Shown here piece after piece: positions 9,515 to 28,221 of a stretch of 64,000 nucleotides of DNA; position 1 is the stretch's first letter; every line of letters begins with the position of its first letter. Position numbers and translations under genes: made by a program. Under the pieces are notes generated by a model that was not told the origin of the DNA, ran no database searches, and saw nothing but the letters and a program-made list of their open reading frames with translations. The stretch is from contig NZ_CP114039.1 in NCBI RefSeq assembly GCF_026965535.1, forward strand, positions 1,426,001 to 1,490,000. The letters run 5' to 3'. This stretch comes from Corallococcus sp. NCRR. Its GTDB lineage: Bacteria; Myxococcota; Myxococcia; Myxococcales; Myxococcaceae.

Positions 9515-10015
9515 TCAACGGGACGGAATCAGGTCCTGGAGCCCTCGCGCGTTGACGGGCGCGAAGAAGGGCTGCCGCAGCAGTCGTCCCAGGGCGCGGC
9601 GCTCGACGCAGAGCAGTTGGAGCGAGTCCTCCCACTCCCCCAGCACCGCCACCGCGCGCACGTCGGCCGCGTCGCGATACAGGTCGTTGAGGTTGTGCAC
9701 GAGCGCGGACACGTCCTCCAGCTCCCAGCGCTCCGTGACGTCGCCCGCCGCGACATGCAGCTCCAGCGCGGGGCGCTCGCGCACGTCCACGACCTTGAGC
9801 TTGCGCGCCGCGCCGCCCATGGCCGCGGTGAGGGGGCCCACCAGCTCATCCGGCCGGACGCCGTACCCCACGGTGAGCCCGCCCACGAGCAGGCCCGCGT
9901 CACACAGCCGCAACAACGACACGTGCGGAGGCTCGCCCTTGGGTACGAGTCCGGACGCGGCGGCGGAGTCCTTGAGCAGCCGCTCGCGGTCGAGCGCATC
10001 CAGCAGGGAGGCCAT
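9515..10015 (-). CDS. Hypothetical protein, cytoplasmic
   Basis: Unrecognised 166-residue protein without signal peptide or membrane segment. It has a mixed alpha/beta pattern, with GLLVGGLTVGYGVRPDEL, a VVDVRERPALELHVAA strand and a C-terminal helical stretch ending in RQPFFAPVNARGLQDLIPS. Gene spacing is 15 nt from the upstream cupin gene (stop at 10031), and the downstream MYXO-CTERM gene starts 50 nt on, so it may be co-transcribed with the cupin. The N-terminal DALDRERLLKDSAAAS resembles a helical dimerisation segment. No function can be assigned. Confidence 0.65.
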   Translation of the reverse strand: MASLLDALDRERLLKDSAAASGLVPKGEPPHVSLLRLCDAGLLVGGLTVGYGVRPDELVGPLTAAMGGAARKLKVVDVRERPALELHVAAGDVTERWELEDVSALVHNLNDLYRDAADVRAVAVLGEWEDSLQLLCVERRALGRLLRQPFFAPVNARGLQDLIPSR

Positions 10016-17215: not shown

Positions 17216-17599
17216 GCGGACGCCTCACCAAACCCCGGGAAAGTCTTGGGTTTCCTTCACCAACCCCGACCCCGCCCATACACGCGCGGGCGCCGCTTAG
17301 CACCGAATGCGCGGCGCGTGCAACCGGTACGGGGACCCGGGCCACCCCACCGCCAGCAGCGGTTGCGGCACCCGCAAGCGCAGCTACCACGGCGCCGGGG
17401 CCATGGGGGTGGTTTCTCCTCTGATGAACGGGTTCGGAGGAGCAGGCGTCCCGGGGGGCGCCCGGTGGATCAGCGGCGACAGGGTCCCAGGGAGGTGACG
17501 GGCGGCCGGGCGGAGCGCCCTCCGTCTCTCAGCACCGGGCCCACGGCATCGCCAGCTTGGCAGGGGTCACGTTGGCCGTTCATGCCCAAGGAGTCACGC
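17216..17599. other. Intergenic region upstream of the F0 operon and PEBP gene
   Basis: This 384-base stretch separates the divergent atpZ and PEBP genes and must contain both promoters. Two short frames in it lack ribosome-binding sites and homology features. It is less GC-rich in the first 60 bases upstream of atpZ than the coding DNA. I see no convincing -35/-10 pair or repeat. Confidence 0.5.
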
Positions 17600-18094
17600 A
17601 TGCCGAAGCCGCTCGAGCTCACCTCTCCGAAGTTCAAGGACGGGACGCCCATCCCCATCGCCTACACCGGCGAGGGCGACGACAAGGCCCCTCCCCTCCA
17701 CTGGGAGAACCTCCCCGCCGGGGCCAAGAGCCTGGCGCTCATCGTGGAGGACCCGGACGCGCCGGACCCGGCGAACCCCCAGCGCACCTTCTGCCACTGG
17801 GTCCTTTACAACCTCCCGGTCAACGCCCAGAGCATCCCGGACGGGGCCACCCTGGACGTGCTGCCCGACGGGGTGAAGCTGGGGCGCAACGACTTCGGCC
17901 GGCAGGACTACGGCGGCCCCATGCCTCCCATCGGGAGCCACCGGTACTTCTTCAAGCTGTACGCCCTGGACACGGTGCTGCCGGACCTGAACCAGCCCAC
18001 CCGCACGGAGCTGCTCAAGGCGATGCAGGGCCACATCGTGGGTGAGACGCAGCTCATGGGCACCTACGAGAAGACGCACCACCGCAAGCACTGA
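17600..18094 (+). CDS. PEBP-family protein (YbhB/YbcL-like)
   Basis: A 164-residue phosphatidylethanolamine-binding protein of the bacterial Raf-kinase-inhibitor-like type. Motifs: YTGEGDDKAPPLHWENLP, the ligand-pocket strands ALIVEDPDAPDP and CHWVLYNLP, RNDFGRQDYGGPMPPIGSHRY, and FFKLYALDT. These give the anion-binding pocket of the family. Bacterial members have no known enzymatic role. The ATG at 17600 has an AAGGAG site seven bases upstream and is preferred over the ATG at 17582. It converges on the RiPP operon's last gene, with a 16-nt gap. Confidence 0.93.
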   Translation: MPKPLELTSPKFKDGTPIPIAYTGEGDDKAPPLHWENLPAGAKSLALIVEDPDAPDPANPQRTFCHWVLYNLPVNAQSIPDGATLDVLPDGVKLGRNDFGRQDYGGPMPPIGSHRYFFKLYALDTVLPDLNQPTRTELLKAMQGHIVGETQLMGTYEKTHHRKH

Positions 18095-18110: not shown

Positions 18111-18704
18111 TCAAGGTGACGGCAGCTCGCGCGTCATCACCGCGGGCAGGCCCGGCACCTTGAGGTACTCCACGCGCGTGGGCTTCGGCTCCACCAGGGG
18201 CCAGCCCGGCGCGTCCAGCGCGGCGAGCAGCGTGAGCACCGGATGGTCGAAGGACTCCACGAACACGCCTGACGCCGGCATGGGGGTCAGCCCCCACGCG
18301 AGCGACAGGCGCAGCCGTTCGCACCGGGCCAACTGAGGCACGTACGCGGGGAGCTTCGCGTGCTTGCCCGTCTCCAGGAAGTGGCAGTACGCGATGGCCT
18401 CCTCGCGGTTGAGCACCTCCGGCGGCACGTCCTGGAGGAAGCGCGCGCGAAGTGGGCCCAGCTCCGGCCGCTTCGCTTCATCCACCCAGGGGAGCTGCTC
18501 GCGCACGCGCTCGGTGCGGTGGAAGTCCATCATCCGGCCAGCGCGCTCCACCACCACCGGCTCCACCCGCTGGAGGGCCTCCGCTTCCAACGGCGTCAGG
18601 TCCAGCGGAGCCAGGGCCGTGAGAGCGTCGCGGCGCCACGCTTCACGGAAGCGGGGATCCACGTGCAGCCGCGCCAGGACCTCCAACGTTCGTGGGTAGC
18701 TCAT
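18111..18704 (-). CDS. MNIO partner protein (HvfC/BufC-like)
   Basis: A 197-residue protein translationally coupled to the DUF692 gene (ATGA overlap at 18701-18704), last gene of the RiPP operon. The N-terminal half is helical (YPRTLEVLARLHVDPRFREA, LTALAPLDLTPLEAEAL). The C-terminal half has YCHFLETGKHAKLPAYVPQL followed by ARCERLRLSLAW, which is like the FL...LPYLxDLARLE pattern of HvfC/BufC-type proteins that pair with MNIOs; this match is remote and judged by eye. Such partners hold the precursor for the oxidase. The rest (PASGVFVESFDHPVLTLLAAL) is not diagnostic. Confidence 0.65.
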   Translation of the reverse strand: MSYPRTLEVLARLHVDPRFREAWRRDALTALAPLDLTPLEAEALQRVEPVVVERAGRMMDFHRTERVREQLPWVDEAKRPELGPLRARFLQDVPPEVLNREEAIAYCHFLETGKHAKLPAYVPQLARCERLRLSLAWGLTPMPASGVFVESFDHPVLTLLAALDAPGWPLVEPKPTRVEYLKVPGLPAVMTRELPSP

Positions 18705-19531
18705 GCCGCGCTCGCACCGCAGCGCTGGAGGATGGCGCGCGCACGAGCCAGTTCCTCCACCAGCCGCGCGAACGGAGGAAAGCCGCTGTCCATCTCGAAG
18801 TTCACCCCGCGCACCGGGCTTCGTGGCGCCACGTATTCCAACAAGCGCCACACCTCTTCCGGCGACGGCGCGGAGTGGCTGTCCAATCTCAACCCCTCCA
18901 TCGTGACGCCGCCCGCCAGGTGCACCTGCACCACGCGCTCCAAAGGCAGACGGTCCAGGAAGGCATACGGGTCGAACCCGTGATTGACCGCGTTGCAATG
19001 GAGGTTGTGCAAGTCCAGCAGCAGCCCGCAGTCCGCGCCCTCCACCACGCGGCGCAGGAACTCCGCTTCATCCAGCGTGTTGAGCGGCGTGTGGAAGAGA
19101 TACGCGATGTTCTCCACCACGAAGGGCACGTCCAGGTCCGCCTGCGCCGCCTTCACGTTGCGCACGCACGTGGCCACCGCCTCCTCCGTCAGCGGCACCG
19201 GCGTCAGCGCGCGCAGGGGCAGGTTCCCCACGCGCGTGAAGCACAGGTGGTCTCCGTGCCAGACGCTCTTGGTGACGTGACGGATGCGCTTCAAGCCGTC
19301 CCGGTAGCCGGGCGCGTCCACGCCGTCCGAGCCCACCGACAGCTCCAGGCTGTGGCCCACCAGCGGGTAGCGCTTCGCGAGCAGCTCCAGCCGCCGCTCC
19401 GAGTCCGGCGTGAGCGGCAGGAAGTGCTCGGGCGTCACCTCCAGCCAGTCCACGCCGGGGTTGCCGCGCGCCAGGTGCGGATTGAGGTCCCAGCGATAGC
19501 TGAGCCCCACGCCCAGGAAGGGAAGGCCCAT
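18701..19531 (-). CDS. DUF692 multinuclear non-heme iron oxidase (MNIO)
   Basis: A 276-residue TIM-barrel enzyme of the DUF692/MNIO family (MbnB, TglH, BufB), which oxidises peptide residues with a two- or three-iron centre. Family motifs, in order: GVGLSYRW, WLEVTPEHFL, VGHSLELSVGS (His60), GDHLCFTR (His95), VVENIAYL (Glu140), LLLDLHNLHCNAVNHGFDP (Asp173, His175), HLAGG (His204) and DSHS (Asp217, His219). All expected iron ligands appear present. It lies 4 nt after the methyltransferase gene and overlaps its partner gene by 4 nt. It likely modifies the Cys motif of the two peptides at 24538 and 24683. Confidence 0.93.
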   Translation of the reverse strand: MGLPFLGVGLSYRWDLNPHLARGNPGVDWLEVTPEHFLPLTPDSERRLELLAKRYPLVGHSLELSVGSDGVDAPGYRDGLKRIRHVTKSVWHGDHLCFTRVGNLPLRALTPVPLTEEAVATCVRNVKAAQADLDVPFVVENIAYLFHTPLNTLDEAEFLRRVVEGADCGLLLDLHNLHCNAVNHGFDPYAFLDRLPLERVVQVHLAGGVTMEGLRLDSHSAPSPEEVWRLLEYVAPRSPVRGVNFEMDSGFPPFARLVEELARARAILQRCGASAA

Positions 19532-19535
19532 GGCT

Positions 19536-20378
19536 TCAGCCCTTGCGCCGCGCCATCACCTGGAAGTGCTGTCCCAGGACGGCGAAGCCCTCGTGCGCCA
19601 GCTTCTCCTGCAACGCCAGTATCTCCTCGCGCGCGGCCCACGCGTCCCACGGCTTCTCCGCGGTCCCGCCGTGCGAGGCCGCCATCGCCTTGAGCATGTC
19701 GAAGAACATCACCGGCTTGCCGAAGATCTCCAGCAGCTCCGCGCCCGCGTCCGCCACCGCGCGCTCCAGCTCGCGCACCGTGAAGGCGTGCACCGGCAGG
19801 CCATACGGGCACGTGGTGCGGCCGTCGTGGAGCGTGCGGAAGGCCTCCTGCGGCTTGCCCATCTTCAGGTAGCCGGAGAACGCCTCGTAGCGGTTGTCCA
19901 CGCCCAGCACCACCGGCGCGCCCGGCTTCGCCACGCGCACCAGCTCCTTCACCGCGCTCGGGTACGCCTCCAGGCAGTACGACACCGGGTCGCCTTCGCA
20001 GAAGACCAGGTCGAAGGCCGCGTCCGGCAGCTCCAGCGCCGCGACGTTGCCCTCCACGAAGCTCACCCGGTCCAGCAGGCCCTTCGCGGCGAACTGCGCC
20101 CTGGCGCCGTCGAGCATGCCCGGAGAGATGTCCAGCACGGTGACGTGGTGACCTGCCTCCGCGAAGCGCGTGCCGAACTTGCCGCCCCCGCCGCCCGCGT
20201 CCAGCACGCGCCAGGCCGTGCCGTCCTTCGGCAGGAGCGCCTCCACGGGCTTCCAGGTGAGGTGCTCATACGTCAGCCAGAACAGCTTGATGGCCGTGGC
20301 GTCCGGCGCGCCCTGGTCGTACTTCGGGGACACCTCGTCGTAGCGGCGCTTGAGGCTCTGCGGATCGGCGGAGGTCAT
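19536..20378 (-). CDS. SAM methyltransferase of the RiPP operon
   Basis: A 280-residue class I methyltransferase. The SAM motif is VLDAGGGGGKFGTRFA, followed by VTVLDISPGMLDGARAQ, NVAALELPDAAFDLVFCEGD and LVRVAKPGAPVVLGVDNR. It begins 21 nt after the beta-barrel gene and ends 4 nt before the MNIO gene. Methyltransferases accompany MNIOs in other peptide clusters, where they methylate the peptide or its new ring. The C-terminal AREEILALQEKLAHEGFAV helix is a common end of this family. Substrate not proven. Confidence 0.88.
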   Translation of the reverse strand: MTSADPQSLKRRYDEVSPKYDQGAPDATAIKLFWLTYEHLTWKPVEALLPKDGTAWRVLDAGGGGGKFGTRFAEAGHHVTVLDISPGMLDGARAQFAAKGLLDRVSFVEGNVAALELPDAAFDLVFCEGDPVSYCLEAYPSAVKELVRVAKPGAPVVLGVDNRYEAFSGYLKMGKPQEAFRTLHDGRTTCPYGLPVHAFTVRELERAVADAGAELLEIFGKPVMFFDMLKAMAASHGGTAEKPWDAWAAREEILALQEKLAHEGFAVLGQHFQVMARRKG

Positions 20379-20399: not shown

Positions 20400-22529
20400 T
20401 CAGTAGTTGAAGGAGATTTTCGAGAGGATCCGCCGCTCCTGGGAGCCGCCGAAGGGCTGATCCGTGTAGACGAGGAAGATGTCGCTCCACTGGCGGTAGT
20501 GCCACCCCACCATCGCGTCCAGGAACGTGCCCTTCACGGAGTTGTAGTCCGCCAGCTCGTACACGCCGCCCTTCTGCAAGGTCAGGCGCGCGTAGAGGTC
20601 CGGGCTGAAGTGGTAGCGCAGCTGCGCGTAGCCGGAGAAGCTGTAGCCGTCCCCGGACGTGCCGTAGAGGTCGCTGTTCGTCGGCACGTTGAAGTTGCGC
20701 GTGTAGAAGCCGCTGAAGCGCGCGACGATATGCGGTCCAATCTTGATGTTCGCCGCGCCGTTGAAGCCGCGGATCTCCCCGCCCAGGAAGCGGCCGGCGA
20801 CGGCGGTCAGCGTGTAGCTCTGCCAGTCGTGCGGGAACAGGGTGAAGCCGAACGTGCCCAGCCGGTCCCGGAAGCCCAGGTTGTCGTCGTAGATGCCCTC
20901 CAGGTAGAGCGCGAAGTCGTGGTGCAGGTAGGGCTGCACGTTGAGGCGGTTGCGCCAGCGCGTGCGCTCGTGCTCGTGGTTGCGGCGCCACAGCGAGTCC
21001 CACGTCACGTCCAGCCGGGGCAGGAAGCGCCACCCGGGGAACGGGTTCAGGAACAGGCGCGAGTTGTAGCCCTGCTTGTCCACCACCGGCGTCCAGCCCA
21101 GCGGGTTCGCGTAGTTCTTCCCGATGTCCTCGAACTGCAACCAGAACTCCGACAGCGTGTCGAAGCGGTGCAGGCCCACGTGGTACGCGTCCGAGTCCTC
21201 GTTGCCCAGCGGGCTCCAGCTCTTCAGCGCCTGCGCCTGGATGAAGAACTCCTCGAAGAGGTGGAAGTTGCCGTCCACGCCCACCGTCTGGAAGTCCGAG
21301 TCCCCGAACAGCCCGCCCCGCCCGCTGCGGTTGAGCGCCACCACGGAGATCATCGACCGCTTGCCGATGTCCTGCTGCAAGCGGATGACGCCGGAGTTGA
21401 CGTTCTCGAAGACCTCACGGCCGTTGGCGTCCCGCCCGGTGAGGTCGCGGTGCTGCACGTCCATCATCGAGAAGCTCAAGCCCCCCAGCTTGCCGGTGAG
21501 CTGCAGGCCGCCCCACACCCGGTCATGCGGCCGCAGCGCGATGCGGCGCGAGGTGAAGACGTTGATGGGCGCGATGAAGAGGTGCTCGCTCTCCGTGAAG
21601 AACGCGCGGCGCTCCGGCAGCAGCGGCATGTCCGTGTCCAGCAGGAGGAAGCTCTGGTCGGCCTCCGCGTCGCTGAAGTCCGGGTTGGCGGTGAGCTTCA
21701 CCGCCAGCCAGGGCGTCGGGTCGATGCGCGCGTCCGCGCCCACGTTGGGACGGAAGACGCCCCGGTCGTCCGTGGTCTTGAGCGCCACCGTGGTGGCCAC
21801 GTACGGGGTGATGCTGAAGATGCTGCGCGGCTTGATGCCCTTGAGCCCCTCCAGGTGCGGATAGCGGCTCACCTTCGCGCTGTTGACGCCGTCCGGCGTC
21901 CAGTTGCTCCACTCCTGGTTGCGCGACTGCTCGCGGTCCAGGAGCATGCCGAAGGAGATTTCGTCCTTCGTCTCGAACTGGAAGTTGGCGAACGGGATGC
22001 GCACCTCTGAAATCCACCCGTCCTTCACGATGGTGGACTTCGTCTCCCATTCCCCGCGCCAGTTGGTGGAGAACGCCTCGCCGTCATCCACGATGCGCCC
22101 GTCGGTGCGCACACCCAGCGGGTTGGTCCAGAAGTAGTACGCGTTCCGGTGGTCCAGGAACGTGTCCAGGATGATGGTGATGTTGTCCTCCTGGTGGAGG
22201 AACCCCTCGTTCTGCACCGTGTAGCCGGTGATGCGCTCCGGCTTGGAGTCGATGCAGTGGAAGAGGAAGTAGAGGTTGTCCTGGTCGTAGAGGATGCGGA
22301 CCTTCGTGTCGTCCGGCGCGGGCTTGCCGTAGTTGACGCGCGTGAGGTACCAGCCGGAAATCTCCGGGGCCGCCTGCCACGCGGGCTCATCCCCCTTGCC
22401 GTCGATGGTGATGGCGTCCTGCGTCCGCGTCGCGGTGACCTTGTACGTCGAATCAGCGTGTCCCAGCGTGGGCACCAGCGCGGCCAACAGCGCGGTGCCC
22501 CAGCGACACACGTGGCGAAGGGGGCTCAT
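20400..22529 (-). CDS. DUF5916-like outer-membrane beta-barrel with N-terminal CBM9-like domain
   Basis: A 709-residue exported protein. Signal peptide (residues 1-25, ending GHADS). Residues about 35-215 form a CBM9/DOMON-like carbohydrate-binding fold (ITIDGKGDEPAWQAAPEI, VRILYDQDNLYFLFHCID, FLDHRNAYYFWTNPLG, EVRIPFANFQF). The rest is DUF5916: an outer-membrane barrel of about 16 strands, with alternating aromatic residues and a C-terminal Phe-Asn-Tyr. It overlaps the MFS gene by four bases (ATGA) and is therefore co-translated. In the operon it could form the outer-membrane step of peptide export or uptake. Relatives are of unknown function. Confidence 0.85.
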   Translation of the reverse strand: MSPLRHVCRWGTALLAALVPTLGHADSTYKVTATRTQDAITIDGKGDEPAWQAAPEISGWYLTRVNYGKPAPDDTKVRILYDQDNLYFLFHCIDSKPERITGYTVQNEGFLHQEDNITIILDTFLDHRNAYYFWTNPLGVRTDGRIVDDGEAFSTNWRGEWETKSTIVKDGWISEVRIPFANFQFETKDEISFGMLLDREQSRNQEWSNWTPDGVNSAKVSRYPHLEGLKGIKPRSIFSITPYVATTVALKTTDDRGVFRPNVGADARIDPTPWLAVKLTANPDFSDAEADQSFLLLDTDMPLLPERRAFFTESEHLFIAPINVFTSRRIALRPHDRVWGGLQLTGKLGGLSFSMMDVQHRDLTGRDANGREVFENVNSGVIRLQQDIGKRSMISVVALNRSGRGGLFGDSDFQTVGVDGNFHLFEEFFIQAQALKSWSPLGNEDSDAYHVGLHRFDTLSEFWLQFEDIGKNYANPLGWTPVVDKQGYNSRLFLNPFPGWRFLPRLDVTWDSLWRRNHEHERTRWRNRLNVQPYLHHDFALYLEGIYDDNLGFRDRLGTFGFTLFPHDWQSYTLTAVAGRFLGGEIRGFNGAANIKIGPHIVARFSGFYTRNFNVPTNSDLYGTSGDGYSFSGYAQLRYHFSPDLYARLTLQKGGVYELADYNSVKGTFLDAMVGWHYRQWSDIFLVYTDQPFGGSQERRILSKISFNY

Positions 22530-23836
22530 CCGGGCTCCGAGGTAGGGGTGAGGGCGGCCACGGGGGCCGGTTCAGGCGTGACGTGTGAGGACGCCTCGCG
22601 CACGCGCGACACACAGGCGAGCGCCAGCACGAGGGACCCCGATGAGAGAAGGAACGTGCAGCCGATGCCGGCGGCTTGCGCGACGAAGCCGTAGGTGACC
22701 GGCGCGAGCACGGAGGCCAGCGCGCCGCAGGCGCCCAGCGCGCCCATGAACCGGCCGCGCTCGGAGGGCGCCGGGGACTGCTCCACCACCAGCGCGGACG
22801 CGGAGGAGCGGTGCAGGCCGTCGGGAATCGCCAGCAGCACCCAGGCCCCCACCAGCGTCACCAACGCGGCGCCGTCCGGCAGCCACCCCGCGGCCCCCAG
22901 CACCGCCGCCATCACCGCCATGCCCGCGAGGCCCGGCACGATGAGGCCCACGCGCCGCGACAGCCGGTCCGACAGCCGCCCGCCGAAGGGCTGCGCGAAC
23001 GCGTACGTCAGCCACGACGCCGCCACCAGCGGCCCCACCGCCTCCCGGGGGGCGCCCAGCTCCACCGCGTACAGCGGCAGGTACGTGGGGAACAGCGCCA
23101 GCGCGAAGGTGAAGAAGAACTGCCAGAGGAACAGCCCCGCCGCGCCCGGCCGGTCCTTCACGTAGGTGAACGGCGACAACAGCCCCCGGAACACCAGGCC
23201 CCACCCCGCGCCACCGCGCACGGCGTCCGCGCGCGGAGGACGCGCCGGTTCGTCCAGCCCCAGGAGCAGCAGGCTGCCCGCGAGGAACAGGCCTCCCGCG
23301 AGGAAGAAGGTGCCCGCCACCGACAGCGCGCGGATGACGGCGGAGGACGCGAACAGCGCGGCGACGAACACCAGGTTGGACGTGGCATCCAGCAGCGCGA
23401 AGAGCGTGGCGCGCTGCTTCGCGGGCGCGAAGTCCGCCACCATCGCGTTGGACACCGGCGCCGCGCTGCGCGACAGCAGCATCTTGAGGATCATCACGGC
23501 GGCGAGCGGCTGCGGGTCGTCCACCAGCGCCACCGCCGGCACCATCAGCGACGTGACGAGCGACAGCCCCACCACGAAGGGCTTGCGCCCATGGCGGTCC
23601 GACAGCGCCCCCAGCACCGGCTGCACGAAGATGGGCAGCAGCGCCCCCACCGTGTAGAGCGCGCCAATCTCCTGGAAGCCCAGCCCGCGCTCGCGCAGGT
23701 ACAACGGCATCACCGGGTTGAGCAGGCCGGAGGCCGCCATGCCCAAGAGCCCCGAGCCCAGCATCACCCTCAGATTTCCCAGCCCCCGCGTCAGCCCGAC
23801 CATCTCCCGGATGGCGCCCACGCCCTGGCGGATCAT
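22526..23836 (-). CDS. MFS transporter of the RiPP operon
   Basis: A 436-residue permease with 12 predicted helices. The family signature loop between helices 2 and 3 is GALSDRHGRKPFVV, and the repeat in the second half is GGRLSDRLSRRVGL. Opening helices read NLRVMLGSGLLGMAASGLL and VGALLPIFVQPVLG. It overlaps the upstream Lon-like gene (ATGA at 23833-23836) and the downstream beta-barrel gene. Drug-efflux-like MFS proteins export small products, so it is the likely inner-membrane exporter of the mature peptide. Confidence 0.92.
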   Translation of the reverse strand: MIRQGVGAIREMVGLTRGLGNLRVMLGSGLLGMAASGLLNPVMPLYLRERGLGFQEIGALYTVGALLPIFVQPVLGALSDRHGRKPFVVGLSLVTSLMVPAVALVDDPQPLAAVMILKMLLSRSAAPVSNAMVADFAPAKQRATLFALLDATSNLVFVAALFASSAVIRALSVAGTFFLAGGLFLAGSLLLLGLDEPARPPRADAVRGGAGWGLVFRGLLSPFTYVKDRPGAAGLFLWQFFFTFALALFPTYLPLYAVELGAPREAVGPLVAASWLTYAFAQPFGGRLSDRLSRRVGLIVPGLAGMAVMAAVLGAAGWLPDGAALVTLVGAWVLLAIPDGLHRSSASALVVEQSPAPSERGRFMGALGACGALASVLAPVTYGFVAQAAGIGCTFLLSSGSLVLALACVSRVREASSHVTPEPAPVAALTPTSEPG

Positions 23837-24456
23837 CCCCCCACCCCTTCCGCGCCATCGGCTCCGGCGGCGCGAGGCTTCAGCCCCAGCACCGCCTCCA
23901 CCGCCTTCGTGAGCGTGGGCACCGGCCGCACGTCCAGCGCCGTCAGGGGCGCCGTGTCGAAGGCGCTGCCCTCCGGCACGAACACCGCCACCCGCTCCGC
24001 CCGCGGAAACACCTGCTTCACGTAGGCCTGCGCCACGCCCAGCTTTCCCTGGAGGAACTCGCGCGGCGCGGGCGCGAGCCTCTCCCCATGCGCCTCCAGC
24101 GCCACGCCCGTGCCCAGGAAGGGCGACGGCAGCGGCAGTCCCGAAAGCAGCGCCACCCACGCGACGAACAGCGGCAGCGACGCGCTCCGGCCATCCAGCG
24201 TCACGTTCCGGCCGCGCGGCGAGACGTGCAGGTCCGTCTGCTCCCACGGCAGCGCATAGCGCGCGCGGCCCACCGCGGACAGGTGGCGCGCATGGTCCTG
24301 CCACGCGGGGGTGAAGGCATTGCCCCGCGACACGTCCGTCCACAGCCGTCCCTGGCCGGGGCGCACGGACAGCTCCACGGGCACGACGCGAAAGAGCGCG
24401 TGTCCGCCGACGTCCGCCTGGGTGAAGAGCAACAACTGCGTGGATGCGGGCAGCAT
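23833..24456 (-). CDS. Lon-like (S16) proteolytic domain protein
   Basis: A 207-residue protein. Residues about 80-165 match the fold order of the Lon proteolytic domain: LDGRSASLPL (Ser91 at the place of the catalytic Ser in DGPSAG), LGTGVALEAHGERL, then FLQGKLGVAQAY (Lys138 at the place of the catalytic Lys) and RVAVFVPEGS. No AAA domain is present. If active, it could cut the leader from the two peptides. The ATG at 24456 is chosen because a GTG at 24510 lies inside the hairpin at 24494-24526. It overlaps the MFS gene by 4 nt. Confidence 0.6.
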   Translation of the reverse strand: MLPASTQLLLFTQADVGGHALFRVVPVELSVRPGQGRLWTDVSRGNAFTPAWQDHARHLSAVGRARYALPWEQTDLHVSPRGRNVTLDGRSASLPLFVAWVALLSGLPLPSPFLGTGVALEAHGERLAPAPREFLQGKLGVAQAYVKQVFPRAERVAVFVPEGSAFDTAPLTALDVRPVPTLTKAVEAVLGLKPRAAGADGAEGVGG

Positions 24457-24493
24457 GGGCGGGGGCGTGTCGGCGCTCTTGAGGAAAGACACA

Positions 24494-24526
24494 GCCGGGA
24501 GGAGGACCACAGGCCCTCCTCCCGGC
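24494..24526 (-). terminator. Hairpin attenuator after the precursor peptides
   Basis: A perfect 12-bp inverted repeat: 24494-24505 (GCCGGGAGGAGG) with 24515-24526, around a nine-base loop. It begins 12 nt after the first peptide's stop codon and is followed by only a short pyrimidine stretch. Its place between the peptide genes and the modifying and transport genes suggests partial termination, giving more peptide message than enzyme message; this is inferred. Confidence 0.75.
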
Positions 24527-24537
24527 CATGAAACGCG

Positions 24538-24630
24538 TTACTCCGCGACGACGATCACGCCCATGCCGTTGGAGCAGGTGCACTTGTCGGTGGCGGCGGA
24601 AACGCGGACGATCTCGGACTGGATGTACAT
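24538..24630 (-). CDS. RiPP precursor peptide 1 (30 residues)
   Basis: Small gene, start ATG at 24630, with an AGGAG ribosome-binding site seven bases upstream. It begins MYIQSEIVRVSA, followed by ATDKCTCSNGM (Cys17 and Cys19), then GVIVVAE and TAA. The first 12 residues are identical to peptide 2, so they are likely the recognition part, with the Cys region and the C-terminus as the core. It lies inside the MNIO operon, between the PqqD-like gene and the enzyme genes. No homologue is known to me. Confidence 0.88.
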   Translation of the reverse strand: MYIQSEIVRVSAATDKCTCSNGMGVIVVAE

Positions 24631-24682
24631 GGTGGTTCTCCTGGGATGAATGTTTGGGGTTGAAAGCAAGACGACGGAGTGA

Positions 24683-24784
24683 CTACTCCGCGCTCACGGT
24701 CGTCGAGGCGATGACCATGCCGTTGGAGCAGGTGCACTTGTCGGACGACGCGGACACGCGGACGATCTCGGACTGGATGTACAT
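24683..24784 (-). CDS. RiPP precursor peptide 2 (33 residues)
   Basis: Small gene, start ATG at 24784, with the same AGGAG site and spacing as peptide 1. It begins MYIQSEIVRVSA, then SSDKCTCSNGM (Cys17, Cys19), then VIASTTVSAE and TAG. It differs from peptide 1 at residues 13-14 and in the C-terminal part after Met23, while the ending AE is shared. The 52-nt gap between the two genes is also similar in sequence to the region upstream of this one, which points to a recent tandem duplication. Transcribed from the promoter upstream of the PqqD-like gene, possibly with a weak internal one in 24785-25023. Confidence 0.88.
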   Translation of the reverse strand: MYIQSEIVRVSASSDKCTCSNGMVIASTTVSAE

Positions 24785-25023
24785 GGTGATTCTCCTGGGT
24801 GGATTGCTGCGTTCACTGCGGTGAAACATGGCGGAGTGTGGACAGGGGGTCTGACATTGCCTGCCAACACTCCGGTGCTTCATTCCAGCCGTGAAAACAC
24901 GTCTCACGTCTGGCATCACGCGCACCCGGGGCGACCCGGGCACACGGGATTCCCAAGGCTCGGGACATGGCCCGGCCTGTCCCTCTGACGAGGGCAAAAA
25001 GGCGCTTCAGCGGACGGCGAAGG

Positions 25024-25302
25024 TCAGACGGGGCGCGAGGGCTCGCACAGCCCCAGTTGCTGGAACTGCGTCACGGTGCGTTGGACGTCGGCGCGGATGG
25101 CCTCTTCCTGGCCCACGGCGCCCAGCCGGAGCGCCAGCGACGCCACCGCTCCCTCCAGGGACGTGTCGCCCTGGCACAGCTCGAAGATGCGCGCGGCGGT
25201 CTCGTTCACCCGGAAGACCTCTCCGCCCTCCGTGTCCAGGAGGAAGAAGGCTTCACCTTGCTGCTGGACGATGACGCCGGAGGCCGCGTGGGGCAGGTTC
25301 AA
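25024..25302 (-). CDS. PqqD-like RiPP recognition protein
   Basis: A 92-residue stand-alone PqqD-superfamily protein. The winged-helix/RRE fold shows in GEAFFLLDTEGGEVFRVNET, then AARIFELCQGDTSLEGAVA, and a C-terminal helix FQQLGLCEPS. PqqD-type domains bind the leader of RiPP precursors and present it to the modifying enzyme. It is the first gene of the operon, 240 nt before the peptides. The TTG at 25302 is the likely start, since no ATG or GTG lies in frame between it and the promoter. Confidence 0.85.
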   Translation of the reverse strand: MNLPHAASGVIVQQQGEAFFLLDTEGGEVFRVNETAARIFELCQGDTSLEGAVASLALRLGAVGQEEAIRADVQRTVTQFQQLGLCEPSRPV

Positions 25303-25369: not shown

Positions 25370-25521
25370 TACATGCAAGGATTCGGGTTGGAATTCATGA
25401 GAGGGTTTGAGAACGTGTCGGGTCCTGAAGGGCCGGGCCGGCCCGGCTGTTGTGCGGTGGTGGGCGATTGACGGGCGGGGGTGGCTTCACCGAGGGGGGC
25501 CAGGGGTGCGAAGGTAGGGGG

Positions 25522-28221
25522 GTGAGGAGCACAGAGCGCACGAACCGTCGGGTGGGGACGGTTCCCGAGGAACCGGAGGCGGCGTACCGCCTCTTCGACG
25601 ACATGCCCCTGGGCGTGTTCGTGCTTCGGGACGGCCTGCTCATCCACGCCAACGCCGCCCTGTCACGCCTGCTGGGCGTGGCGCGCGAGCAGCTGATGGG
25701 CAAGCCGGTGACGGCGCTCCTGTGGGAGCCGGGGCCCATGGAGGACCCGGCGGATCGGCTCGCGCGGCGGCTGGGTTCATCGCCCGTGGCGGGCACCTAC
25801 GAAGCGTGGCTGCACGTGGGCGCTGGCGGGCTGCGCGTGGAATTGACCGTGCATCCGCATGCCAGGGATTGGGTGGTGCAGGTGCGCGATGTGACGTCCC
25901 GCGTCCGGCGCCGCATGGTGCTGCGGCGGCTGGCGGAGCTGGGGAGCGCGGTGCGCGCGCTGCACTCCGAGGACGCGGTGCGCGAGGAGGTGTTCCGCGG
26001 GCTGGAGGCGCTGGAGCTGGGCTTCGCGTGGCTGACGCCCCGGGGCGTGGGCGTGGAGCTGTCCGTGGCGGGCCTGTCCCCCCGGCTGGTGCCGCACGCG
26101 CCGTCCCTGGGAGGCCGCGTGCGGGTGGAGGCCCCGGGCGGCTGGGCGCCCGCGCTGGTGCGCACCTGGCGCGAAGGCGACGCGTGGGTGGAGGACCTGG
26201 GCGTGGAGGCGTCCCGGTTCGTCTCCGAAGCGCGCATGGACGCGGTGCTGGCGGTGTTCCGGCGCGTGGAGACGCACCGGGCGGTGGGCGTGCGCATCGA
26301 CGTGGAGAACGCGCCCATGGCCATGCTCGTGCTGGCCTCCGACTGGTTGAGCGAGGAGGACGTGGCGGCGGTGCGGCTGTTCGGCCAGCAGGTGTCCTCC
26401 GCGCTGGACGCGGCGCGCACCATCCAGCGGCTGAGCGTGCGCGCGACGGCGCTCACCGCGCTGGGACGGCTGGCGTCCCAGGCCGCGTCCGCGCCCCACC
26501 CGCGCGCCTTCTTCGGCTCCGGCACGGAGGAAATCTCGGGCCTGCTGGGCTGTGACGCCGTGTGCCTGCTGCTGCCCGCGGACATGCGGCACGAGCCGGG
26601 CGAGCCCCTGGAGCTCGTGTACGCGCGCGGCCTGTCCGAGGACGCGGTGGCGCGCGTGCGCCGCGCGCGGCTGGGGTCGCTTCCCCGTCCGGGCGGGATG
26701 CCGGACGCCGTGCAGGTGCTGGACGCGGAGACGTGTCCCGCGCCCACGCGCGACGCGCTCCGGGCGCTGGCGTTCCAGACGCTGGTGTCGGTGCCGCTGC
26801 GGGTGCGCTCGCGCGGCGTGGGCACGTTGAGCGTGCTGTTCCACGCGCGCCGCCGGCTCACCGCGCTGGAGGTGGAGACGCTCCAGGCCATGGGCACGCA
26901 CTTCGCGGCGGCCATTGAGTCCCACCGGCTGCTGGACGAGGTGCGCGGCCGGGCGGAGGACCTGGCGCTGATGCACGAGGTGGGCAAGGCGCTGGCGGCC
27001 ACGCTGGAGCTGGACCGGCTGCTGGCCACGGGCGTCACCAGCCTGGCGCGCATCGTGGACGTGCCGGACGCGTACGTGCTCCTGCCGGATGCCCAGGGGA
27101 ACCGGCTCGCCGTCCGCGCGGCGACGGGCGGCCACCCGGAGCTGGTGGGGCGCCACGTGTCGCTGGACCCGTCGACGAACTCGCTCGCGAGCCAGGTGTT
27201 CCGCACGCGCCAGCCGATGCGCGTGGAGGACGCGCGGCTGGAGACGCGGGCGGACGAGGAGCTGCGCCGCGCGGCGGAGGCCCAGTCGTACATGGTGCTG
27301 CCGCTCGCCGTGCATGACCAGATGGTGGGCGTGGCGGTGATGGTGGAGACGCGCCGGCCGCGCCGCTTCACGCCCTCCGAGCTGGAGCGCGCGGACGCCA
27401 TCGCCAACCAGCTGTCGCTGGCGCTGGAGGGCGCGCGGCTGGTGGAGGACCTGAAGCAGAGCTACGCGGAGCTGGCGCGCGCGCAGGAGCAGCTGGTCAA
27501 CCGCGAGCGGCTGGTCGCGCTGGGTGAGCTGTCCGCGGTGGTGGCCCACGAGGTGCGCAACCCCCTGGGCGCCATCTTCAACTCGGTGGCCACCATCCGC
27601 CGCATCATCGGGCCGGAGAGCCCGGCCATCCCGCTGGTGGACATCGTGGGAGAGGAGGCGGACCGGCTCAACCGCATCGTCGCGGACCTGCTCACGTTCG
27701 CGCGGCCTCCGTCGCCGCACCTGTACCCGGTGTCGGTGACGCAGCTCTTGGAGGAGGCGGTGGGCAGCGCGCTCTCCGACGTGGGCGGCACCTCGCCGCC
27801 GCCGGTGCGGGTGGAGTGGGTGATGGAGGAGGACGTGCCGTCGGTGACGGTGGACGAGCGGCTCATCCGCCAGTGCTTCCTCAACGTGGCGCTCAACGCC
27901 GTGCAGGCCATGCTGCCCCAGGGCGGCACGCTGCGCGTGGCGGCGCGCAGGGCGTGGATGGACCGGCCCGGCGTGCAGGTGGAGATCAGCGACACGGGGC
28001 CGGGCATCCCGGCGGAGCTGCGCGTGCGCGTCTTCGAGCCCTTCTTCACCACCAAGGCCCAGGGCACCGGGCTGGGGCTCGCCGTGGTGAAGCGCATCAT
28101 CGACTCACACGTGGGCCAGGTGTCGCTGGACGCGCCGGAGACGGGCAAGGGCACCATCTTCCGCCTCTTCCTGCCGCTGGAGCCGCCGGTGGCGCCGAAC
28201 CTGCCCCTGACGGGCGCGTGA
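25522..28221 (+). CDS. Hybrid PAS/GAF sensor histidine kinase
   Basis: A cytoplasmic sensor kinase of about 899 residues with no membrane segment. Order: PAS (about 20-130, GVFVLRDGLLIHANAALSRL), then two or three GAF-type sensor domains (about 130-640; LMHEVGKALAATLELDRLLA opens the last one), a coiled-coil linker, HisKA with phosphoacceptor in VVAHEVRNPLGAIFNSVATI (about 675), and HATPase with N box CFLNVALNAVQAM, G1 SDTGPGIP and G2 KAQGTGLGLAVVKRI. The response regulator is not adjacent. It is divergent from the RiPP operon. The GTG at 25522 follows AAGGTAGGGG. Confidence 0.93.
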   Translation: MRSTERTNRRVGTVPEEPEAAYRLFDDMPLGVFVLRDGLLIHANAALSRLLGVAREQLMGKPVTALLWEPGPMEDPADRLARRLGSSPVAGTYEAWLHVGAGGLRVELTVHPHARDWVVQVRDVTSRVRRRMVLRRLAELGSAVRALHSEDAVREEVFRGLEALELGFAWLTPRGVGVELSVAGLSPRLVPHAPSLGGRVRVEAPGGWAPALVRTWREGDAWVEDLGVEASRFVSEARMDAVLAVFRRVETHRAVGVRIDVENAPMAMLVLASDWLSEEDVAAVRLFGQQVSSALDAARTIQRLSVRATALTALGRLASQAASAPHPRAFFGSGTEEISGLLGCDAVCLLLPADMRHEPGEPLELVYARGLSEDAVARVRRARLGSLPRPGGMPDAVQVLDAETCPAPTRDALRALAFQTLVSVPLRVRSRGVGTLSVLFHARRRLTALEVETLQAMGTHFAAAIESHRLLDEVRGRAEDLALMHEVGKALAATLELDRLLATGVTSLARIVDVPDAYVLLPDAQGNRLAVRAATGGHPELVGRHVSLDPSTNSLASQVFRTRQPMRVEDARLETRADEELRRAAEAQSYMVLPLAVHDQMVGVAVMVETRRPRRFTPSELERADAIANQLSLALEGARLVEDLKQSYAELARAQEQLVNRERLVALGELSAVVAHEVRNPLGAIFNSVATIRRIIGPESPAIPLVDIVGEEADRLNRIVADLLTFARPPSPHLYPVSVTQLLEEAVGSALSDVGGTSPPPVRVEWVMEEDVPSVTVDERLIRQCFLNVALNAVQAMLPQGGTLRVAARRAWMDRPGVQVEISDTGPGIPAELRVRVFEPFFTTKAQGTGLGLAVVKRIIDSHVGQVSLDAPETGKGTIFRLFLPLEPPVAPNLPLTGA

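Follow-up and report, generated by a model that had tools for sequence, protein, structure and literature searches.

Two short genes in the window analysed here, a 64,000-nucleotide stretch of the genome of Corallococcus sp. NCRR (9.79 Mb, one contig), very probably encode the precursors of an MNIO-dependent RiPP operon. The genes, which we call pepA and pepB, lie on the minus strand at 24683..24784 and 24538..24630, and their ORF translations are peptides of 33 aa (MYIQSEIVRVSASSDKCTCSNGMVIASTTVSAE) and 30 aa (MYIQSEIVRVSAATDKCTCSNGMGVIVVAE). A profile of the peptide family recovers both (E 8.9e-19 for pepA and 1.3e-17 for pepB) and finds such peptides, with best E values from 9e-20 to 2e-13, in 22 of the 195 genomes of the phylum; this result places pepA and pepB far beyond chance. 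The remaining four of the 26 genomes matched at E<=0.05 (G151, G132, G177 and G004; E 0.005–0.04) were set aside as noise. As far as the literature was searched, the precursor family, its arrays with fast-evolving tails, a seven-unit fusion and a predicted Lon-type peptidase are new; the class of MNIO enzymes is already known.

A family of short arrayed peptides

The original prediction described two short ORFs with an identical 12-residue start, a common DKCTCSNGM block, a common AGGAG site and differing C-termini, and all of these features are present on the minus strand. pepA and pepB are identical over both the start and the block, AGGAG ribosome-binding sites lie at 24792..24796 (pepA) and 24638..24642 (pepB), with CCCAGGAGAAnCACC preceding each start, and the C-termini differ, although Ala-Glu ends both. 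The image of twin peptides holds for the window, which has two copies, but not elsewhere, where arrays of two to nine copies occur. Neither peptide matches a Pfam or NCBIfam family at E<=0.1 or any Pfam family at E<=10. By inspection of the residues, neither carries a Sec signal, the longest hydrophobic run in the first 23 residues being 2. Upstream of the array, an alignment of Corallococcus-type loci revealed a conserved element, TGTCAGACCCCCTGT (24842..24856, minus strand), which may be a promoter or operator; it is exact in 13 of the 14 aligned loci, differs by one base in the other (L140), and has one exact copy in the whole genome. At the corresponding place in the Citreicoccus and Myxococcus-type loci (L047–L054) stands an inverted repeat of the type GTGTGTTT...AAACACAC, to varying degree.

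Using a pattern with D, N or E near position 15, C-x-C and M23, we collected 82 stand-alone genes in 21 loci, which encode 72 distinct peptides of 30–36 aa. Together with one fused gene, they provide the linked short Cys-containing precursors expected of an MNIO-dependent RiPP. M1, Y2, R9, A12, D15, C17, C19 and M23 are invariant in all 82, and I7, V10 and K16 are each kept in 81; the collecting pattern itself demanded C-x-C, D, N or E near position 15, and M23, so the other invariant residues are the independent part of this conservation. Position 6 is Glu in 36 peptides and Gln in the other 46, and the last residue is likewise always Glu (63) or Gln (19). The tails, 7–13 residues long, are rich in V, T, A, I and S and contain no Cys, Trp, Tyr, Pro or His.

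The arrays differ in form among relatives. In a Myxococcaceae MAG (L053, 4531-5076), one 181-aa ORF consists of seven head-CxC-M-tail units fused in frame, and for this reason the unit looks like a functional module. The fused protein starts with a Gln-Ile junction, its inner junctions are Glu-Ile in five cases of six and Ala-Ile in the other, and it ends in Gln. A Pfam search at E<=10 gave only weak matches below cut-off for this protein. We also rejected tblastn matches to it on plasmids (six records from Enterococcus and Aeromonas, E down to 9e-12), two of which were inspected and are unrelated repeats, one without any Cys. A nine-copy array in G056 (L047, 10122-11161; repeat spacing 128 bases), with one tail in seven of its copies, six of which are identical peptides, is a recent expansion. 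Two satellite arrays of three peptides each (L137 6735-7139 and L138 6713-7118, minus strand) lie on 9-kb contigs that hold no homologue of other operon proteins at E<=1e-3; their peptides have the same head and C-T-C, with an extra tail Cys and a C-terminal Cys.

Scanning the 22 main arrays with a DNA profile built from the head returned all 82 known heads, the first L053 unit (its further units being left out of the list of extra matches) and 11 extra matches. Eight of these are noise (E 0.5 or worse), and three are real relics or diverged copies (L044, L046 and L050; E 1e-7 to 3e-4), which fell outside the 82 because those were gathered by the motif pattern. L044 and L046 each have a third copy (9865-9933 region in L046 and the matching place in L044) whose 34-aa ORF is still open and preceded by a GGAG site. 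Its C-x-C is intact (R-C-M-C-C), but Y2, K16 and M23 are gone and the C-terminal residue is Ala; this copy may be decaying or may represent a new type of peptide. L050 contains a decayed relic without a start. Broken peptides beside an intact operon, the outcome that had been named beforehand as speaking against the prediction, were seen only in this weak form, as an extra diverged or decayed copy in 3 of 22 arrays, each alongside intact copies (two in L044, two in L046 and seven in L050). The plain reading is that copies are born and die inside a maintained array.

The operon and its modification enzymes

The operon runs on the minus strand from 25302 to 18111 in the order PqqD-like RRE, pepA/pepB, X225, MFS transporter, CBM9/DUF5916 protein, methyltransferase, MNIO and TglI-like partner. 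Its first gene, in this genome as in all 19 whole operons, encodes a PqqD-like protein of 92 aa with a TTG start (25024..25302), a stand-alone RiPP recognition element of PqqD type (Pfam PF05402, E 3.8e-13; 50 bits against a cut-off of 23.4). After the peptides and X225 come a 436-aa MFS transporter (22526..23836; PF07690, E 2.5e-45), a 709-aa CBM9-like/DUF5916 protein (20400..22529; PF06452, E 5e-8, and PF19313, E 3e-5, both over cut-off, the latter barely) that is probably an outer-membrane barrel, its localisation being deduced, and a SAM-dependent methyltransferase of 280 aa (19536..20378; PF13649, E 1.3e-19). The last two genes, all of these likewise on the minus strand, encode a 276-aa MNIO oxidase of the MbnB/TglH/ChrH family (18701..19531; PF05114, E 2e-76, 257 bits against a cut-off of 25) and, directly 3' of it, a dedicated partner protein of 197 aa (18111..18704).

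Gene order is identical in the 19 operons found whole on one contig, and three further genomes, with the operon split over two contigs, hold nothing that contradicts it; the main arrays lie between the PqqD-like gene and X225 in 22 of 22 cases. X225 is found strongly (E 1e-119 to 4e-101) in the same 22 of 195 genomes as the peptides. Orthologues of the MNIO (at least 77% identity) occur in 23 of the 145 genomes of the order, including 15 of 16 of its own genus, and these 23 are the 22 genomes with peptides and X225 plus G060, whose MNIO sits on a 6-kb contig cut off within the MFS gene. A contigs scan, built on X225 patterns only, matched 69 stretches and yielded 13 relatives (13 loci, from Corallococcus, Citreicoccus, Myxococcus, Pyxidicoccus and two Myxococcaceae MAGs). 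All carriers are Myxococcaceae, in whole-genome searches that covered their own phylum and a contigs scan that used X225 patterns, so relatives beyond these may be missed. Ten non-orthologous MNIO loci (L055–L064; 40–46% identity, one 29%) were considered and rejected, the precursor C-x-C motif being found in none of them.

The genes on either side of the operon, encoding a histidine kinase (window 25450-28221) and a PEBP protein (17597-18094), are kept in Corallococcus and Citreicoccus. In L049–L054, the 14.8 kb examined around the operon contain neither, and in G109 the kinase homologue lies elsewhere, from which we infer that the operon has occupied more than one genomic site over time. In L049 (11391-11656), the PqqD-like frame is apparently broken next to eight peptides and an otherwise intact operon; this is either a sequencing error or a sign that the PqqD-like gene is dispensable.

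One member of the genus, G069, retains a deletion remnant of the operon (L149, 11724-12306) between flanks that both match in DNA; the scraps left correspond to the C-terminal 54 residues of the methyltransferase, the N-terminal 59 of the MNIO and residues 115–197 of the partner. G069 is the sole congeneric genome without peptides, and most of its operon is gone as well, so that peptides and operon were lost together. This loss bears on the proposal that the peptides act without modification, as toxin-antitoxin, bacteriocin-like or signalling peptides, and that the MNIO operon serves another substrate. Short, arrayed and diverse peptides would suit such roles, and the satellite arrays do lie away from modification genes. 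However, the main family shares its 22 of 195 genomes with the operon, occupies the same slot in 19 of 19 whole operons, keeps C-x-C and disappeared with most of the operon in G069, and we consider the proposal highly improbable.

In the MNIO itself, the nine iron ligands of TglH, as given in PMC10880893, fall on H60, H95, E140, D173, N176, H204, D217, H219 and E246, and all nine positions are kept in 23 of 23 aligned MNIO sequences; an earlier fixed ligand pattern matched 16 of 22 orthologues, a shortfall caused by the spacing of the pattern. Against NCBIfam models, the enzyme scores 192 bits with BufB (cut-off 310), 184 with HvfB (cut-off 360), 127 with ApyH, 63 with ChrH and 20.9 with MbnB (cut-off 325), the last of which sets it apart from methanobactin enzymes as that model defines them. 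Since all of these scores are under the curated cut-offs, the enzyme belongs to no named subfamily and its chemistry is not readable from it.

The partner protein matches no Pfam family at E<=0.1, DUF2063 (PME-type 1) included, and its one match to the PDB by sequence is unrelated (E 1.8). Its AlphaFold2 model (pLDDT 88.9) has chain A of TglHI as Foldseek ranks 1 and 2 (E 3.7e-3 and 1.1e-2, probability 1.00), and at 268–269 aa, against 304 for the TglH chain, chain A is taken as TglI. Structural comparison gave Z 10.3 over 188 residues with TglI, 8.2 with NGO1945 and 7.6 with Os1348. A Z score near 10 is modest by itself for a mostly helical protein, but each of the first four rows is either an MNIO partner or the Os1348 fold, for which NCBIfam gives a weak match at the partner's N-terminus as well, and the predicted assignment of this model as TglI-like by fold, and hence PME-type 2, is convincing. 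In MNIO systems, signal-less precursors correlate with PME-type 2 partners according to PMC12452194, and the combination of signal-less precursor and PME-type 2 partner seen here agrees with that correlation.

These components suggest a pathway in which the conserved head, approximately residues 2–15, would be bound by the PqqD-like RRE together with the C-terminal region of the TglI-like partner. The MNIO would then oxidise one or both Cys of the K-C-[TS]-C motif (Cys17, Cys19), with 5-thiooxazole-type groups as the most likely outcome. This chemistry is favoured because the best-scoring named subfamilies are the 5-thiooxazole-type BufB and HvfB maturases and because MNIO/PME-type 1 systems make 5-thiooxazole at Lys-Cys, according to PMC12668002. 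Against it, a TglI-type partner goes with MNIOs of other chemistries; we put 5-thiooxazole-type modification just short of an even chance, and the chemistry is the most open step of the pathway. The methyltransferase would add a methyl, and the MFS transporter and the CBM9/DUF5916 protein would move the product out, export being deduced from their families. Metal binding through the two Cys and the Met is a guess that we regard as doubtful.

Evolution of head and tail

Fifteen pairwise comparisons were made among six Corallococcus genomes whose operons are complete, with the head taken as a fixed 23 codons (here and in the clade comparisons), the tail taken without its last two codons, and pS calculated from five operon genes. 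Tail pN exceeded operon pS in 14 of the 15 close pairs and the tail's own pS in 12, and head pN exceeded operon pS in none, in pairs that are not independent of one another, given related genomes, short segments, pairwise alignments with indels and visible exchange between paralogs. An instance of such exchange is seen in L037, where pepA carries pepB-type head codons.

In the closest clade, head pS was 0.055 and 0.021, against 0.096–0.163 in the operon genes, and head pN was 0.03–0.04, too few changes for head dN/dS in this clade to be informative alone. The low head pS led us to consider that the head may be constrained at the level of DNA or RNA as well, or that copies may be exchanged. Among paralogs within a genome, head pN was below pS in 17 of 20 loci, with no change in the other 3 (L035 had no head value, and three peptides were cut two residues early at an extra Met). 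These comparisons indicate that the head is under purifying selection, and they support the earlier view of the pair as the product of a precursor duplication, with leader and Cys motif under constraint.

The behaviour of the tail depends on the clade. It evolves fast, and in the closest clade it is probably diversifying. For two other clades of Corallococcus, tail pN (0.22 and 0.28 in clade B; 0.09 and 0.30 in clade C) was below tail pS (0.25 and 0.29; 0.25 and 0.35), so tail dN/dS is not above 1 there, and we read the tail as at least weakly constrained in these clades. Between paralog tails of equal length, pN exceeded pS in 6 of 8 usable loci, with the opposite in L052, no change in L047 and L035 left out. 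The 2–9 peptides of a genome would present a common Cys warhead with differing short tails rich in beta-branched residues and, by virtue of the shared warhead and differing tails, the array would amount to a small natural peptide library.

Alternatively, the peptides may be carriers arrayed for dosage. Only the constant K-C-T-C-S-N-G-M would end up in the product (a small ligand for metal or a small molecule like the pearlins), and the tail would be discarded and unconstrained. The expanded array of G056, with one tail in seven of nine copies and six identical peptides, looks like dosage, and a tail pN that is not above tail pS in two of three Corallococcus clades is what drift would give. The 14 of 15 closest-clade pairs in which tail pN exceeds operon pS are more than drift predicts, however, and a tail that ends in Glu or Gln in 82 of 82 peptides and from which five residue types are absent is not free. 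We consider the carrier explanation unlikely and retain the reading of the array as a library of varied tails on a common warhead.

A predicted Lon-type peptidase and relation to known systems

The gene between the array and the MFS transporter (23833..24510, minus strand; start uncertain, GTG at 24510 or ATG at 24456) encodes X225, a predicted stand-alone Lon/S16 Ser-Lys peptidase domain. It matches no Pfam or NCBIfam family at E<=0.1 and has only weak Pfam matches below cut-off at E<=10, and its best PDB match by sequence has E 0.1. The Pfam Lon_C model (PF05362) matches five other places in this genome, X225 not among them, so the likeness to S16 is one of fold and dyad only. An AlphaFold2 model based on 19 orthologues (pLDDT 82) gave the E. 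coli Lon proteolytic domain as its top Foldseek match (E 3e-11), with Z 18.2 and rmsd 2.6 over 174 aligned residues. All 19 orthologues have both Ser91 and Lys138. When X225 was compared by profile with seven Lon proteins, of which this genome supplied two and its relatives five (hhalign probability 87), Ser91 fell on the Ser of the Lon motif DGPSAG, and Lys138 on the second Lys of GG[IL]KEK, which corresponds to K722 of E. coli Lon; S679A is named in the PDB title of one of the Lon structures matched. The distance from Ser to Lys is 43 residues in Lon and 46–47 in X225. An AAA+ ATPase domain is absent from X225, which at 207–225 aa consists of the proteolytic domain alone. From the S16 fold above all, and with the Ser-Lys dyad in place, we predict that X225 is active as a stand-alone S16 domain.

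Weak matches to the X225 profile in seven further genomes (E 1e-6 to 1e-3) were rejected as stretches of long ORFs, five of which (L118–L122) contain the Lon motifs DGPSAG and GGIKEK; L117 and L123 are the other two. X225, the MNIO partner, the DUF5916 protein and the fused precursor had no match among defence families.

Some Lon-fold domains, including those of RadA and ComM, are not known to have a protease role. X225 may similarly be a scaffold, the role proposed for the Lon-fold domain of RadA, in which case a housekeeping protease would mature the peptides. The RadA and ComM Lon-like domains come nearly as close to X225 as Lon does (Z 16.0–16.8), and a fold by itself shows no activity. 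The complete invariance of Ser91 and Lys138, and their alignment with the Lon dyad, argue for a protease, and a scaffold seems rather unlikely to us. From its place in the operon and its co-occurrence with the peptides, X225 probably matures them, a conclusion that we hold with modest confidence. It would trim the modified peptide, whose small size would make the unfoldase part of Lon unnecessary.

A more specific proposal can be made for the site of cleavage. The stand-alone Lon domain may be a dedicated maturation peptidase that cuts between Glu or Gln and Ile, removes the six-residue MYxxx[EQ] head and splits the seven-unit polyprotein, giving products that run from I-x-R-V to a terminal Glu or Gln. 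The proposal derives from the Glu or Gln found at position 6 and at the last residue of all 82 peptides and from the Gln-Ile start and five Glu-Ile inner junctions of the L053 protein. Against it, the third copies in L044 and L046 end in Ala and the satellite peptides in Cys. Lon, moreover, is not known to cut preferentially after Glu or Gln. A fair rival is that the units were fused by simple recombination at shared Ala-Glu codons and that the last residue was fixed for another reason, a requirement for an acid or amide at the C-terminus. We advance this cut site tentatively, at clearly less than an even chance.

MNIO enzymes carry out unusual oxidative chemistry on peptides, and here one is found with short arrayed precursors beside a predicted peptidase. 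If our model is true, the operon would offer a compact enzyme set and a peptidase for peptide libraries around a modified Cys pair, and would raise the question of what predatory myxobacteria vary the tails for. The literature searched, which had supplements and most subscription journals outside its scope, yielded no description of this MNIO RiPP family and, in main texts, no RiPP leader peptidase of Lon/S16 type; the main text of a review of RiPP leader proteases (PMC10885120) contains neither Lon nor S16. DUF5916 was not mentioned in the literature searched, nor was Corallococcus among the matches listed in the search on such systems, and the myxobacterial mentions in one MNIO paper (PMC12257519) are reference-list entries on other RiPPs. 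The terms 'Myxococc', 'PqqD' and 'methyltransferase' are absent from the main text of PMC12452194, the supplement of which may list such systems; the same paper models a PME-type 2 protein of the myxobacterium Plesiocystis and states that most published MNIO precursors carry Sec signals, some being very long.

Several known systems share parts of this architecture. X225 resembles Lon/S16 peptidases in fold and Ser-Lys dyad, but has about 207 residues, lacks the AAA+ ATPase domain and lies inside a RiPP operon. Chryseobasin (ChrH) and methanobactin (MbnBC) likewise involve the MNIO superfamily and a Cys substrate, although the MNIO described here reaches only 63 and 21 bits with their NCBIfam models. 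The pearlins (TglA/TglHI, 3-thiaglutamate) have the partner whose fold ours most resembles; in contrast to pearlins, the modified Cys would be internal here, the main-array peptides end in Glu or Gln, and no Cys-adding LanB-like ligase was found among the nine operon proteins scanned with Pfam and NCBIfam. PMC12452194 describes adjamnio-1, -2 and -7 as having signal-less precursors, as here, the first two with PME-type 2 partners, whereas adjamnio-7 has CxxC in place of our C-x-C. The captophorins or bufferins (Buf, HvfABC, fontiphorin and oxazolin) are the systems whose BufB and HvfB enzymes give our MNIO its best scores, and the Lys-Cys dipeptide that becomes 5-thiooxazole in fontiphorin, at a mass loss of 4 Da for each motif according to PMC12668002, is present in 81 of our 82 peptides. 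Unlike those systems, the family described here has no Sec signal, DUF2063 partner or EGKCG repeat, its precursors are only 30–36 aa long, and its operon adds a methyltransferase, a separate PqqD-like RRE and a predicted Lon-type peptidase.
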